From contig JAKAPZ010000004.1 in NCBI GenBank assembly GCA_021822985.1, forward strand, positions 1 through 51,908: DNA of 51,908 nucleotides, in the 5' to 3' direction. The position numbers and the translations under genes are program-made. Below, one piece after another: positions 1 through 47,479 of the stretch. The notes beneath the pieces were generated by a model. It saw only the letters and a list, made by a program, of their open reading frames with translations. It searched no databases and was not told where the DNA came from. The number at the start of each line of letters is the position of its first letter. Within the stretch, counting starts at the first letter, position 1. Source of the stretch: Thermoplasmata archaeon. Its GTDB lineage: Archaea > Thermoplasmatota > Thermoplasmata > Thermoplasmatales > Thermoplasmataceae.

Positions 1-1047
1 CCTGATGAACCTGTTCATAAGATCATTGTTTTCGCTTACAAGCTGGGAAAGTGTCTCATAAAATATGCTTGACTCTGAAACGTTATTTGTATCCATATAT
101 TCCATTATGGCATCAAGTGCCTCGTTCTGATCCACATCACCTGTCACTGCAAGATCAAAGTATGCCTCTGCAAGGGAATTGAAGTAGATCGATATTCTGT
201 CGTTACCTGCTTTTTCATGGAATTTCAGGCTTTTCAGGGAGTCGTTTATATGCCTTCCCTTGCTTGAAAGGGCCCCTGCAATGCCCCACAGAAGCTTGTC
301 TGTAGAATTGGATAATGGAATGGATGGTGAGGATACGGCATCATCAATGTCGATGATATTTTCCATGCCTTCCAGATTCTTCATATTTTCCGGGAAAGTC
401 ACGGATATGAATGTGTCAGAGTGGTTTCCCTCCAAACAAGTTGAGTATGAGAACCATATGCCATCAGGGAAGAAATGCTCCATACCCCAGAGTGAAGAGA
501 GCCTGTCTTCAATGGATTCCGCTTTAAACAGGATTCTCCTGCTGTTTTTTATTGTGTTAAGCAGTTCATATATGATATTTCTCTTATTCAGGTTTGTTTG
601 CGGAACATTACTATCAGGATCAATTTCAGGAGATGCCTCGGGGAGAGGTATGAAACCCCCTCCTGAATTGAATCTCTGAAGATCAGTGATAGAATTGATT
701 CCCTTAAGGTGGAGTTCGTCAACTTTCCTGAAATTTTTTCCCGTCCTGATGAAATCGCCCGGGTTCATGATGATGAAATGGCTGTACATTGCCCCATTTC
801 TTCCATATGCATCCTTTCCGATGTTCTTTGAATAGTTGAATGCGAGTTTTCCTGATGGAAGCTCAAAGAACCTGTTGCATTCCTTAAATGTTGCCATGTT
901 GTAAGGGTTCACCGTGCTGTGGGAATCGATAAATGCAAGATCACTGCCTGATATGCCCTCACTGTGCGTGACCATCTGATAGCCCTTCTTCATGCCCCTC
1001 TCAATCCAGCCATATATGATCTGGCTTGCTTTCACTGTTTCACTCAT
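1..1047 (-). CDS. GAP1-like (GTPase-associated protein 1, N-terminal domain type) protein, partial, runs off the left edge
   Basis: Read by hand: open from ATG at 1047 (minus) to base 1 (349 codons); MSETVKASQIIYGWIERGMKKGYQMVTHSEGI...GKDAYGRNGAMYSHFIIMNPGDF resembles the GAP1-N pattern (GYQ..a.s.Gi ... GRyGnyysHalv). ATGA overlap with the upstream GTPase stop (1044-1047). Missing from the ORF track because it has no stop in the window. Confidence 0.7.
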   Translation of the reverse strand, partial: MSETVKASQIIYGWIERGMKKGYQMVTHSEGISGSDLAFIDSHSTVNPYNMATFKECNRFFELPSGKLAFNYSKNIGKDAYGRNGAMYSHFIIMNPGDFIRTGKNFRKVDELHLKGINSITDLQRFNSGGGFIPLPEASPEIDPDSNVPQTNLNKRNIIYELLNTIKNSRRILFKAESIEDRLSSLWGMEHFFPDGIWFSYSTCLEGNHSDTFISVTFPENMKNLEGMENIIDIDDAVSSPSIPLSNSTDKLLWGIAGALSSKGRHINDSLKSLKFHEKAGNDRISIYFNSLAEAYFDLAVTGDVDQNEALDAIMEYMDTNNVSESSIFYETLSQLVSENNDLMNRFIR

Positions 1048-2660
1048 AATCCATTCACCTCAGCTATCCACTGCACGAGGGAAGTGAAATCCTTGTTGAA
1101 TGTCGGATCAAACACTATATCCTTCCTGCCCCCTTCCAGTATATCAAGCTTAGGAACTATGTCTCCGTCAGGTGAACGTTCTGTTTTCACGCAGATCTTG
1201 AATGCTGTGAGATTTCTTGACAGCTTCCTTGATTTCTTTGCAGTATCCCTCATATATTCAAGAAGCTGTGCTGCAGACTTGTCCGCAACTGCATCCGGGA
1301 GCATGTCAGCCTTGGAAAATATGAATGCGATCTCAACATTCTTCTTTCCATATCTTGCCGAGAAAAGTGCCTGAAGAACCCTGCTGTATGTCACGTCAAG
1401 ATTTCCCCAGTTGGAATACTCAGAGCAGTCAACCATTATGACATATGCCCTTGCAAGGAGCATGTACTCAAATTTTGTGCCCCTGAATCTTGCCCTGATC
1501 TCCTTGGAAGTCCCCTTAAAATCGTCAAAATGTTCCCCCGCAATGTCATTTATCCTGAAATGGGCCCCTTTTTTGCCTAGCAGTCCATTCTTTATAAAGT
1601 GGAATACCACTTCTCCCACTGTATCTTTCTGCGTCAGGTCAGGAAACCTGTGCTCGAGAAGTATCTTTCCAATATATTCTTCCAGAAGTTCCATGCCGGG
1701 ATCCACTGAACTTTCCATCTTCGTGACTTTCTCTATATCAGGCATGAACTTGTACAGATACGAAAGGAATGTAGTTTTTCCTGAACTGGGCGGGCCGGAC
1801 ATCACAATCGTGTTTTCGTAATCGGCTATTCTGATCCTTTCGGGATGTGCGCCCGAAACAGACTGAGAACCTGATGGATTGCCAGATGACTGGACTTTCT
1901 GCGCCGCATTTGCATCGGGTTTCTGTTCCATCTTTTTACCGCTCTTCATCTGAATGTATCTTGATTGCCTGAGGCCAATCCTGGAAGCGAATGAAAATAT
2001 CATGATTTCGAACATCATCAGGAACACTGCACTTGTGAAGTTCGAACTGGATACCAGAATGGTGATTGAAAAAATCATGAGAAATGGAATCCCCACCTCT
2101 TTCCTTGAACTCGAAGCTATGGCGCAGAATGCTGCTGTGAGGAACATAAGTGCCCACAACTGTATGAATATGCTTAACACTCCAGCCATGGTGAAAAATA
2201 TGAAATTCCAGTATGCGATCAGAATTGAAAACGGATTAGATGTGGCATTCCCTATTGGTGATCGTATAAAATCAGTCATAAAAAATATGAAGGAAGAGAA
2301 CATCAGCCCAATTCCAGTGAAAAAGGCCATGACAGAGTATTTCCCGGAAGTCCCGAATCCATCTGCAAACTTCATGGTTTGCCTCTTGATTCTGCTTGAA
2401 GCTGATTCCGAGGAGAACATGAAGAACCAGCCTATAAACGGAATCAATGAAAGGAACAGGTACAGCCCAAGTCCGCTGATGCCCCTCAAAAGTTTTCTGT
2501 GCTCAGGGAAAGCAGCAATATCCGATGTTTTTTTCACCATGGAAATTCTTTCAAAGGATAATATGTACCATATTGTGATCACAAGAAACATGAGAAGAGA
2601 AAAGAAGAAAAGCACATTCGGGGAATTTGATGTTGCCATTAAGGGGGCCATGCTGCTCAT
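1044..2660 (-). CDS. Membrane-anchored P-loop GTPase (TRAFAC / 'double-GTPase'-like) with N-terminal multi-TM region
   Basis: Walker A GPPSSGKT, DxxG-like NDIAGEHF, G4-like FSKADMLP; about 5 hydrophobic segments in the N-terminal ~230 aa. Confidence 0.75.
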   Translation of the reverse strand: MSSMAPLMATSNSPNVLFFFSLLMFLVITIWYILSFERISMVKKTSDIAAFPEHRKLLRGISGLGLYLFLSLIPFIGWFFMFSSESASSRIKRQTMKFADGFGTSGKYSVMAFFTGIGLMFSSFIFFMTDFIRSPIGNATSNPFSILIAYWNFIFFTMAGVLSIFIQLWALMFLTAAFCAIASSSRKEVGIPFLMIFSITILVSSSNFTSAVFLMMFEIMIFSFASRIGLRQSRYIQMKSGKKMEQKPDANAAQKVQSSGNPSGSQSVSGAHPERIRIADYENTIVMSGPPSSGKTTFLSYLYKFMPDIEKVTKMESSVDPGMELLEEYIGKILLEHRFPDLTQKDTVGEVVFHFIKNGLLGKKGAHFRINDIAGEHFDDFKGTSKEIRARFRGTKFEYMLLARAYVIMVDCSEYSNWGNLDVTYSRVLQALFSARYGKKNVEIAFIFSKADMLPDAVADKSAAQLLEYMRDTAKKSRKLSRNLTAFKICVKTERSPDGDIVPKLDILEGGRKDIVFDPTFNKDFTSLVQWIAEVNGL

Positions 2661-4504
2661 ATGGTATCTGCCTCCGCTTCCTGCCTGAAGACCTCATCTC
2701 CCTGCACGGTGTCAAGCTTCCCGAAACCTTCCTTCTCCATCTTTTTCCATATCATAGATATTTCAGTGTCATCAATACCTGTCTGCTTCATAATAGTCCT
2801 CTTCCTCACAATGCCTGCTGTTCTCGATTCCTCTTCTGTAGCCTCTATTATCTTTCTGTAGTGTTCATCCTCGACACTTTCCTTTCCGCAGATCATCCTT
2901 GCTGCACGCGCAAGATGCATATCATTTCCATTGTATATAATGCTGCCATCTTTCATATCCATCAGCACTATCATTGAATTTCCTGAAGATAGCGCAATTC
3001 CCTTTGGATTTTCCACAGCCTTCACCACTTCCTCAGAGAAGCCTATTGGAGATGCGGCCACACACATCATGAATGATTCCTCTCCTGAGGAATTGTGCAG
3101 CATTGTCCCATAAATTTCAGCCAGATCCGTCATGTCAAAGGGCCTCGCATCTATTCCGGGCTCTTCTTTCAGCTTGCTGTCATGTGCATGATACATCAGA
3201 AATATTTCCATGCTCATATCATGCTTCAGGAAACTCTGCTCCCTTATCTTAAAGTTCAGGGATGTGGATATATTTTCATTCGATGATGAAAGCGTATTCC
3301 TGATGCTGTCAGTGATTTCCCTGATGTCCCTGTTCTTCATGTGGATATTGCGCCCATATGAAGGTATGAAAAGGGATGTGTTTCCCATCTTCTTCAGTGC
3401 ATCAGACAAATTCTGGAAAAATTGTGTCCTTCTTATAATTGCGGTGTCCAGATTGCATATCTCACCTGTGCTCCCTGTTTCCCCATTTTTTGCACCTACA
3501 AGGTTGATTGCCTCAATGATGGCCATTGGGCGCTTAATCTTCTCTGCAATGAACTTGTCTGCACGTGAAATGAGTCCGTCAATTCTTGATATCTCCATGT
3601 CCATAAGGGATTTGTTCCTTTTCAGTTCCGGATCCCTGAAAAGCTGAAGCCTCTCCTCCCTGAGCTGATCCAGAACCGATTCCATCTCGTTCCCCATTCT
3701 TGAAAGGGAATTCAGGCAACCCGCAATGTCCTTCCTGCCCAGTTCATCCACATTTCTCTCCATTGCAAGGTTTGCGATCTCCATGGAAGATTCCATGACT
3801 TCACTCATCTCTTTGCTGTTGATCTTTTCTGCGAGGGCCCTTTCTGCTTCCCTCCTCTTGGATTCCATCCTCACTATGCCCTTCATGGAATTTTCATAGT
3901 TGAGGAAAAGTTTCCTTACCTGCCCAGGTTCCTTCTGCAGGTATTTGACAACTCCTTCATTGATCTTCTGGAGCCTTAATTTGTACCTTTCATCCATGGC
4001 AGCATGCAGGGAACTCCTTATGCCTGAATCTGAATGTTCCTCCATAGAACCCATCAGATCTTCAGTGTTCTCCTGGCACCATTCCTTTATGAGCGGATAA
4101 ATCCTGTCATCCTCATTCATGAGTATGCTGCATATGTCATCACTGTTCAGCTGATCGAGCCTTGTGAATTTTTCAAGGTTCTCTATTGCTTCATATTCCT
4201 TCTGGTTGAACATGCCGGTGATCCTCCTGGTTTCAGGATCCTTACTGTTTTCCCCAACGCTTTTCATTATGGAAAGCGCTATCTTTCCGATGGAAAGCTG
4301 AAAGTTTGAGAGTGCACTCTGGAATGCCTGGTTTCCGAGATTCTGCTGGCAACCGTTCCTCATAAGCCCGTTAAGCGATTCCAGTTCTCTCAGAAGAGCC
4401 TTCCTTGATGTGATCTCCATGCCTGATAACTCATTCAAATCCCTGGAAGACTCTTCATAGGATCTGCGCAACAATGAAATGCAATCTCCATTCATTCCTG
4501 ACAT
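2657..4504 (-). CDS. Large coiled-coil protein of unknown function with C-terminal winged-helix-like tail, operonic with the GTPase
   Basis: ORF 2657..4618; likely start MSGMNGD at 4504 (or MFVF just upstream). Stop overlaps the GTPase start (2657-2660). Confidence 0.65.
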   Translation of the reverse strand: MSGMNGDCISLLRRSYEESSRDLNELSGMEITSRKALLRELESLNGLMRNGCQQNLGNQAFQSALSNFQLSIGKIALSIMKSVGENSKDPETRRITGMFNQKEYEAIENLEKFTRLDQLNSDDICSILMNEDDRIYPLIKEWCQENTEDLMGSMEEHSDSGIRSSLHAAMDERYKLRLQKINEGVVKYLQKEPGQVRKLFLNYENSMKGIVRMESKRREAERALAEKINSKEMSEVMESSMEIANLAMERNVDELGRKDIAGCLNSLSRMGNEMESVLDQLREERLQLFRDPELKRNKSLMDMEISRIDGLISRADKFIAEKIKRPMAIIEAINLVGAKNGETGSTGEICNLDTAIIRRTQFFQNLSDALKKMGNTSLFIPSYGRNIHMKNRDIREITDSIRNTLSSSNENISTSLNFKIREQSFLKHDMSMEIFLMYHAHDSKLKEEPGIDARPFDMTDLAEIYGTMLHNSSGEESFMMCVAASPIGFSEEVVKAVENPKGIALSSGNSMIVLMDMKDGSIIYNGNDMHLARAARMICGKESVEDEHYRKIIEATEEESRTAGIVRKRTIMKQTGIDDTEISMIWKKMEKEGFGKLDTVQGDEVFRQEAEADTI

Positions 4505-4592
4505 GCAATCAGTGAAAACAAACATATATATGTTTTCAATGATTATATTGGGGTGCCGGTATTGAAATATTTTTTGCTGATTCCGGAATATA

Positions 4593-5738
4593 ATGACAGT
4601 GAAGGGTGTTGCATCCATGAATGATAAGGGGCAGGATTACGGAAGGATACGGGAACTCCTGAGGCAGGGCATAGAGTTTCAGGCATCGGGAAAGAAAGAG
4701 GAGGCCTCTGCACTGTATGAGGAGGCACTCCGGATTCTTGGCACATATTATGCCAGTGCAGATGTTTTCAGGAAGGAAAGAATAAAAAGGCAGATGTCAG
4801 GGCTCCAGAAGGCCATAGATGGAATGAAGATCAGTGAAAAAGGCAAAACTTCATCCTGGAAGGAGGGGGAGGATATCATAAAGGAACTTGGCCTCACCAT
4901 CACGCACGGGGAAGGGCCCACAATGAGCCAGGTCGCAGGCATGGACGCCCTCAAAAATGAGCTGTTCCTGAAGATCATATATCCGATGAAGTTTCCTGAA
5001 CTTGCAGAGGATTTCAATGTTTCACCCGGAGGCGGGTTCATTCTCTACGGGCCCCCGGGAAACGGGAAAACGTTCATAGTGAGGGCCCTTGCAAGAGAAA
5101 TAGAGATGAATTTCATATATGTCAATCCGGCAACACTCATGAGCCAGTGGTTCGGGAATTTTGAGAAGAATATCTCGCTTCTCTTCAAAGCCGCAAAACT
5201 CCTTTCTCCAAGCATACTCTTCTTTGATGAGCTGGACAGCCTCTTCCCCTCAAGGGACAGATCACAGAGCGATGCATCAAGGAGGGGCGTTTCACAGTTC
5301 CTCAACGAGATTGGAGGATTCACATCAGGACAGGGGAAACCGGTCATACTGCTTGGCGCAACAAATGTTCCATGGCAGCTTGACGAAGCAGTCACGAGGC
5401 CGGGAAGGTTTGACAGGCTCATCTATGTTCCACCGCCTGACAGGACTTCAAGGGAGAGCATCGTGAAAAACTTCATGTCCGCAGTCAGCAGGAAGGGAGA
5501 TATTGACTACAGTTCCATTGGAGAAAAAACAGTGGGATACAGTTCCGCAGATGTGGAATATTTGTGCAGGCATGCATGCCAGAACGTATTCCAGAGGGCA
5601 ATAGACAGGTCGGACAATGATATTGTGGCAACCGATGATATAATGAAAGCGATGACAGTGATCAGGCCATCCATCAGTGCTGAAACCGTCAAGAAATACG
5701 AGAAATACAGGGATATGAAATCGGGCACATCAGTCTAG
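4593..5738 (+). CDS. Vps4/CdvC-like AAA ATPase with N-terminal MIT-like helical domain
   Basis: GPPGNGKT, ILFFDELDSLF, GATNVPWQLDEAVTRPGRFD; N-terminus RIRELLRQGIEFQASGKKEEASALYEEALRIL is MIT-like. Start at 4593 or 4617. Confidence 0.8.
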   Translation: MTVKGVASMNDKGQDYGRIRELLRQGIEFQASGKKEEASALYEEALRILGTYYASADVFRKERIKRQMSGLQKAIDGMKISEKGKTSSWKEGEDIIKELGLTITHGEGPTMSQVAGMDALKNELFLKIIYPMKFPELAEDFNVSPGGGFILYGPPGNGKTFIVRALAREIEMNFIYVNPATLMSQWFGNFEKNISLLFKAAKLLSPSILFFDELDSLFPSRDRSQSDASRRGVSQFLNEIGGFTSGQGKPVILLGATNVPWQLDEAVTRPGRFDRLIYVPPPDRTSRESIVKNFMSAVSRKGDIDYSSIGEKTVGYSSADVEYLCRHACQNVFQRAIDRSDNDIVATDDIMKAMTVIRPSISAETVKKYEKYRDMKSGTSV

Positions 5739-6254
5739 CCTGTCGTAGAACCAGTAAGCATCCCATGGTGCTATGATCAGTGCGTCCCCTTCCCCTGCAG
5801 CGCCGTCAGTAAGTTTTCCGTAAACGCACATTCTCCGCTCCTCGAAAAGGAACTCATATTCCTTTCTCATGGCTGCGGAGTAGAAGAGGAAGAAAGCCCT
5901 GTAAAGGGAATACGTTATTTCTGAATTTAGGGAATCCATGTCCCTGCTGTTTGCCTCCACATATTTGGATACTGTCTCGAGCCCAAGATCAAGAACCTTC
6001 TTCTTGATCTGCATCTCGCTGCTGATCTCTGCCTGTATGGTGGATGGGGATGTACATTCAACGCTCAGTATGGGTATCATTGGATTCTCATCGCTCACTG
6101 CATTGATGATCTTTTCCGTGTTCTGCCCCATGGCTACAAAAACTCTTTTCGGATCTATGCCTTTCACATACTTCATGAGTTTCTTCAGATCCCCACTCTC
6201 TGAATTTTCTCCCATGTTTCCGTATGCTATAACAGTACAACCCATCAAGATCAC
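5730..6254 (-). CDS. Hypothetical protein
   Basis: 174 aa ORF between fttA and the AAA gene; no recognised family. Confidence 0.5.
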   Translation of the reverse strand: MILMGCTVIAYGNMGENSESGDLKKLMKYVKGIDPKRVFVAMGQNTEKIINAVSDENPMIPILSVECTSPSTIQAEISSEMQIKKKVLDLGLETVSKYVEANSRDMDSLNSEITYSLYRAFFLFYSAAMRKEYEFLFEERRMCVYGKLTDGAAGEGDALIIAPWDAYWFYDRLD

Positions 6255-47154: not shown

Positions 47155-47479
47155 GTGGAGAATGCCCGGAGTAAGCCCCCTTCTGTTACCCTGCATTGCA
47201 GGCTGGCAGCATTCGACTAATGGCCTTTCAGCCTTCGTCCTACCCGATCCTCCGGGTGGCATCATCGGATCCGTTTGGACTTTCTCCAGCCAGGGCGGCT
47301 GTCCCATCGCCACAATGAAAATGTCATCCCTGCGGAATCATCCTGCTTCAAGGGGCGTATCATTTCTTTTGCCGTAGCCTTCCCTCTCGGGAAATGTGCT
47401 TCTGCTCAATGGCCTCCACCTCAGGAGGGGGGACTTTCCTCACTCCTAAGAGCGTGAGCTGCCCTCGGGCTTTCTCCAC
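47155..47479 (-). ncRNA. rnpB: RNase P RNA
   Basis: Minus strand GTGGAGAAAGCCCGAGGGCAGCTCACGCTCTTAGGAGTGAGGAAAGTCCCCCC ... AACAGAAGGGGGCTTACTCCGGGCATTCTCCAC; conserved GAGGAAAGTCC and ACAGAA..GGGGGCTTA; P1 ends GTGGAGAA/TTCTCCAC pair. Confidence 0.95.

Follow-up and report, generated by a model that had tools for sequence, protein, structure and literature searches.

A putative GTP-gated ESCRT module in Thermoplasmataceae: genes for a membrane DO-GTPase and a GAP1-N2 protein accompany those for ESCRT-III and Vps4

Tubulins are frequent components of bacterial GAP1-N2 systems, which have been interpreted as directing the regulated assembly of cytoskeleton-like complexes (Kaur 2020; PMC7159879). 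The GTPase systems of that survey occur in a few archaea; Cuniculiplasma divulgatum is named among these, with the type of system unspecified, and neither ESCRT-III (endosomal sorting complex required for transport III) nor Snf7 appears in the text. Separately, the passages on Thermoplasmata in Makarova 2024 (PMC10936438) call the ESCRT machinery of this class minimal and reduced, ascribe a minimal ESCRT system to C. divulgatum and leave GTPases unmentioned; GAP1 does not occur in the text of that paper. We found no paper in the openly searchable literature that links a DO-GTPase or GAP1 to ESCRT-III or Vps4. Here we describe a locus at the left end of a 51,908-nucleotide stretch of DNA (the window; contig JAKAPZ010000004.1, here C98) from a Thermoplasmata archaeon of the family Thermoplasmataceae (genome G000; 119 contigs, about 81% complete), which we treat as a member of the Cuniculiplasma group. 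On sequence evidence the locus is a six-gene module encoding ESCRT-III, Vps4, a DO-GTPase, GAP1, a protein with HEAT and immunoglobulin-like parts (HEAT-Ig) and a coiled-coil (CC) protein. We favor, with some reserve, the reading that this is a GTP-gated ESCRT membrane-remodeling module which would serve envelope sealing, budding-off or protective restructuring, and not routine division.

A preliminary description, made from the letters of the window and their open reading frames (ORFs), had reported three minus-strand genes chained by 4-nt overlaps. The minus-strand ORFs (1 to 1047, 1044 to 2660 and 2657 to 4618), the plus-strand ORF (4593 to 5738) and, on re-reading, both overlaps were confirmed. 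The chain comprises the CC gene, the gene for a transmembrane (TM) GTPase and the start of the GAP1 gene, and the divergent gene encodes a Vps4/CdvC-like AAA ATPase. The GAP1 gene is truncated by the window edge, so that positions 1 to 1047 hold the first 349 of 556 amino acids (aa). The sequence left of base 1 was obtained from contig C67 of the same genome: window bases 1 to 145 and the first 145 bases of C67, reversed, are identical at 144 of 145 positions, and the GAP1 reading frame continues across the join (remainder at L003:2-769) to the total of 556 aa. On C67, outside the window, GAP1 is followed by a plus-strand gene for the 470-aa HEAT-Ig protein (L003:770-2182) and then by a convergent minus-strand gene for a 200-aa protein (L003:2184-2786). 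We consider the join secure because the GAP1 frame runs through it and the gene order matches that of two relatives. One of these, G158 (L062), has on a single contig the same order of eIF6, phosphoribosyltransferase, ESCRT-III, HEAT-Ig, GAP1, GTPase, CC, Vps4, a 174-aa protein (U174) and FttA; the other has GAP1, HEAT-Ig, ESCRT-III, phosphoribosyltransferase and eIF6 in succession. With an ESCRT-III gene at the far end of the operon, slightly beyond the window edge, the tie to a Vps4-type ATPase is far stronger than could be seen in the preliminary description. An archaeal GAP1/GTPase pair beside such an ATPase had been called unusual there; the link held, but C. divulgatum was already among the archaea listed by Kaur (PMC7159879).

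Pfam analysis of the GTPase (538 aa; 1044 to 2660, minus strand) returned DO-GTPase2 (E = 2.9e-12) and DO-GTPase1 (E = 1.3e-6), both above the cut-off, and a DO-GTPase model was matched by all 16 GTPase orthologues. The motifs GPPSSGKT, NDIAGEHF and SKAD are present as first described, and the TM segments placed ahead of them were borne out as about 5 to 7 hydrophobic segments at the N terminus, with the GTPase domain at about 285 to 490. The orthologues keep G1, D-x-x-G-E and T/SKxD, apart from a few departures among the most distant of them. A search of the GTPase profile against the PDB gave chiefly P-loop and TM noise. At three loci (L029:4959-7355, L060:1045-3441 and L063:15694-18090), the HEAT-Ig and ESCRT-III genes are separated by a gene for another DO-GTPase-like protein (798 aa), in which about 15 membrane segments are predicted. 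The gap1 gene lies directly downstream of the GTPase gene, overlapping it by 4 nt, and its product does begin with the GAP1-N-like domain that had been proposed (Pfam GAP1-N2, E = 3.1e-5; 24.5 bits against a cut-off of 24). GAP1-N2 was likewise matched by 13 of the 14 GAP1 orthologues, several of them below the cut-off. The helical C terminus of GAP1 showed a weak likeness to AP-2 beta (E = 0.0036), which we do not claim.

Searched against the PDB, a profile of 18 members of the 200-aa protein family gave human CHMP3 as its top match (5.7e-6), and 14 of the 18 matched Snf7 (best, 1.5e-11). The protein of the window genome, taken alone, falls below the Snf7 cut-off, whereas a related subunit from genus g67 exceeds it. 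When the AlphaFold2 (AF2) model of the protein (predicted local distance difference test [pLDDT], 71) was submitted to Foldseek, the top eight matches were ESCRT-III structures, none below E = 0.001. These profile and model comparisons identify the 200-aa protein as ESCRT-III. Its C terminus carries a conserved leucine within a short helix, which could be a MIT-interacting motif. The AF2 model of the HEAT-Ig protein (pLDDT, 85) consists of a HEAT solenoid, an Ig/FN3-like sandwich and a helical end; the sandwich is single, not repeated, by AF2 and Foldseek. An adaptin-like identity was considered for this protein, and the top 50 fold matches contained no adaptin.

The AAA protein (4593 to 5738, plus strand) matched Pfam AAA with E = 1.1e-36 and is closest to CDC48/CdvC models; it also gave a full-length match to NCBIfam CdvC (6.7e-55), below the cut-off of that model. 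It had been described as a Vps4-like ATPase of the MIT-AAA type. The CDC48/CdvC-type AAA assignment stands, and the MIT (0.012) and Vps4_C (0.014) matches are both subthreshold. The starts of both divergent genes were revised from orthologue alignments and, for the CC gene, from a TATA-like element. The ORFs first listed are present, but the 653-aa maximal CC ORF (2657 to 4618, minus strand) is probably overextended, with its likely start at 4504 or 4495, and vps4 probably begins at 4617. The two genes are thereby separated by about 112 bp of conserved sequence, a divergent promoter region (4505 to 4616, read directly; near-identical in two relatives). It contains a palindromic TATA-like element, GAAAACAAACATATATATGTTTTC, at 4514 to 4537, nearly identical in the two relatives.

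The CC protein comprises a long helical region, an alpha/beta-looking region with an SPxGF motif and a C-terminal end. Searches of Pfam and the PDB with the protein gave no family. Its C-terminal region showed scattered weak helix-turn-helix matches, with no match in the PDB, and is possibly a winged helix. In seven relatives, but not in the window, an uncharacterized gene of 272 to 286 aa lies between the CC gene and vps4 (L029:14177-15037, L060:10281-11129, L063:8000-8839, L064:2633-3451, L065:10113-10940, L067:419-1246 and L068:10722-11552). Its products form two divergent groups; one member scanned gave no family match, and the alignment gave no PDB match. A degenerate ClpP-like fold, considered from the appearance of the sequence, was unsupported.

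Orthologues of the CC protein were found in 18 of 77 genomes of the family, and the GTPase in exactly those 18. The carriers are all 12 genomes of the Cuniculiplasma genus and, from four further genera, one to three species each; their loci show no fewer than three gene orders and lie in several different flanking settings. In every locus read whose contig extends far enough, the GTPase, GAP1 and CC genes adjoin ESCRT-III-like and Vps4-like genes. ESCRT-III and vps4 flank a CC-GTPase-GAP1-HEAT-Ig operon in the window genome, G158 and G143; in G148, the GAP1, HEAT-Ig, ESCRT-III, vps4 and CC genes are consecutive and the GTPase gene faces them; and in genus g67 ESCRT-III-like genes are present in other orders. 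The module is also carried by G067, a single contig of 1,938,699 bp from the same genus as the window. A GAP1 profile matched 7 of 390 sampled genomes of the phylum, every one a module carrier, and 14 loci in a collection of named species, all Thermoplasmata (metagenome-assembled genomes). A GTPase profile search of the genome contig collection gave no match. The co-conservation sought for these genes was thus found across relatives. Judged by gene neighborhoods, the six genes are shown to have been inherited and moved together, and their co-location is not chance, because in many genomes orthologues of every part are clustered. Compared with L065, identity is 57 to 58% for ESCRT-III and Vps4, 40% for the GTPase, 33% for CC, 29% for GAP1 and HEAT-Ig and 82% for the neighboring FttA. 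By this measure the motor parts are slow-evolving and GAP1/HEAT-Ig fast-evolving.

Several copies have neighbors of their own. In C. divulgatum-type genomes the module adjoins DnaJ-, GrpE- and HSP70-type genes (L029:17231-20000, L060:13574-18174 and L063:1251-5809; Pfam checked in L029 only), which may recall the HSP70/GrpE theme seen in the GAP1-N2 systems of bacteria or may be a plain housekeeping chaperone operon. In genus g67, a protein kinase (L070 and L072) and a calcineurin-like phosphatase (L070) lie beside vps4 (L070:2-1832, L072:16168-17739), an arrangement also known from some ESCRT loci of haloarchaea and from bacterial GAP1 systems. Adjoining the module in G143 is another ESCRT-like group of genes (L030:11153-14156), encoding proteins of 192, 214, 394 and 193 aa, of which the 394-aa protein is Vps4-like. 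In the window, vps4 is convergent with the gene for the fast-evolving U174 (5730 to 6254), which overlaps its 3' end by 9 bases and abuts FttA; U174 has no Pfam family and is present in several relatives. An archaeal RNase P RNA (Rfam RF00373; 176.7 bits) lies at 47160 to 47474 on the minus strand.

The family contains a second kind of ESCRT locus. In Thermoplasma- and Ferroplasma-like genomes vps4 is present and the GTPase absent, whether or not an ESCRT-III is detected; a gene of about 150 aa adjoins their vps4 and, by position alone, was taken as the arCOG07400 barrel protein of PMC10936438. The barrel protein occurs in 22 genomes, among them a single one of the 18 module genomes, where it lies at a locus apart from the module; neither G000 (about 81% complete) nor the single-contig G067 yielded it. 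The two kinds nearly exclude each other (Fisher P of about 2e-8 over the 41 genomes with either kind, kinship ignored). GTPase-linked Vps4s from the window and from genera g1, g9 and g5 form a clade of their own (support, 100/99), apart from the barrel-type Vps4s; those from genus g67 and from second loci fall outside this clade, several on long branches. Because G067, taken as C. divulgatum, has the module and no barrel protein was found in it, the minimal-ESCRT statement for this species (PMC10936438) appears incomplete, at least for that genome.

In the remodeling reading that we favor, the GTPase would sit in the cytoplasmic membrane and switch upon nucleotide exchange. GAP1, its fast-evolving partner, and the HEAT-Ig protein would act as sensors for a signal of membrane or foreign origin and would set this switch, and the CC protein would form a bridge to ESCRT-III. 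ESCRT-III would polymerize on the membrane, Vps4 would remodel and disassemble the polymer, and the wall-less envelope would be sealed, budded off or protectively restructured under damage or attack. ESCRT-III, like tubulin, is a polymer, and so a logic common to GAP1 systems and the module is plausible. We put forward only tentatively that a membrane GTPase directly controls a prokaryotic ESCRT as an immune or repair system, in which GAP1/HEAT-Ig would sense contact or damage and ESCRT-III would seal or shed membrane as a counterpart of the tubulin-carrying bacterial GAP1 systems. Several points weigh against the remodeling reading. The conflict-system label of GAP1/DO-GTPase rests on genomic inference from 2020, and many orthologues score below the Pfam cut-offs for GAP1-N2, Snf7, MIT and Vps4_C. 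Among the 14 GAP1 orthologues GAP1-M was matched once (E = 0.004) and GAP1-C never. In the genomes searched the module is restricted to one archaeal family, and 12 of its 18 carriers are a single genus.

Sulfolobus divides by means of archaeal ESCRT-III/Vps4, which would fit a Cdv-like division machine with added GTPase control, and the passages on Thermoplasmata in PMC10936438 propose a division role for ESCRT where FtsZ is missing. However, each of the 18 module carriers was found to have FtsZ, which ESCRT therefore need not replace there, and the FtsZ-less genus g3 carries barrel-type genes instead of the module. A dedicated division role is unlikely, given FtsZ in every carrier and the patchiness of the module outside Cuniculiplasma: in four of the five genera, some species have it and others do not. 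Archaea having both FtsZ and Cdv exist, which leaves division improbable, not impossible. Still less probable is that two unrelated systems lie side by side by accident. Thermoplasma and other genomes in the family do carry ESCRT-III/Vps4 and no GTPase, and the module genes are on both strands; against this, the gene set persists through the rearrangements and genera described above, the GTPase-linked Vps4s form their separate clade, and the barrel-type ESCRT is nearly excluded.

A greater chance, though one we still consider doubtful, attaches to a GAP1-N2-type defense (biological conflict) system with ESCRT-III/Vps4 as effector, in which GAP1/HEAT-Ig would be the sensor for viruses, toxins or episymbionts, and the GTPase would then release ESCRT to seal or sacrifice membrane. 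The core components agree with Kaur's GAP1-N2 systems, the module is patchy within the genera other than Cuniculiplasma, GAP1 and HEAT-Ig evolve fast, and a transposase-like gene adjoins one copy (L069:11518-12387). However, there is no variable toxin-like effector, ESCRT-III and Vps4 being constant and conserved, and the presence of the module in 12 of 12 Cuniculiplasma genomes is as expected for a core function. PADLOC left GAP1 unmatched, gave weak or generic P-loop/AAA matches for the other module proteins and named no specific system. The interpretation in the preliminary description is supported, with defense and membrane repair both remaining candidate functions.

The module unites the ESCRT literature (Makarova 2024) with that on GAP1-N2/DO-GTPase conflict systems (Kaur 2020), which are separate on this point in the papers searchable. 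It suggests a GTP-controlled form of the ESCRT machine earlier described as minimal in wall-less, acid-loving archaea. C. divulgatum, a cultivated, simple, wall-less archaeon, offers a testable case of GTPase control of ESCRT-III.

Like the Cdv division system of Crenarchaeota, the module has ESCRT-III and Vps4/CdvC homologues, but a GTPase and GAP1 are attached and FtsZ is also present; CdvA was not noticed at the locus, where no search was aimed at it. In some bacterial psp operons, according to the part of PMC11237479 concerned, a DO-GTPase family protein lies near PspA, of the ESCRT-III superfamily, and is predicted to act in membrane stress. That PspA is bacterial, Vps4 and GAP1 are unmentioned in the same part, and the GTPases are likened by family name only. 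The minimal Thermoplasmata ESCRT, as given in the passages on that class (PMC10936438), shares Vps4 and ESCRT-III homologues and the same archaeal family; the module differs in lacking the barrel protein, in its GTPase, GAP1, HEAT-Ig and CC genes and in its separate Vps4 clade. With the GAP1-N2-type DO-GTPase systems (PMC7159879) it shares a gap1-N2 gene directly downstream of the DO-GTPase gene, TM segments and an Ig/FN3-like protein, whose sandwich is comparable with the FNIII component of those systems. Also shared are a second GTPase paralogue at some loci and, in some relatives, HSP70/GrpE/DnaJ or kinase/phosphatase neighbors, which represent two of the three published themes. Unlike those systems, the module is archaeal, its GTPase has no reported zinc ribbon, its single Ig/FN3-like domain is set on a HEAT solenoid, and its CC protein is new. 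Most distinctively, ESCRT-III and Vps4 stand where those systems have tubulin or other components, which suggests that GAP1-type GTPase switches may target filament-forming partners generally, tubulin in bacteria and ESCRT-III in the module.

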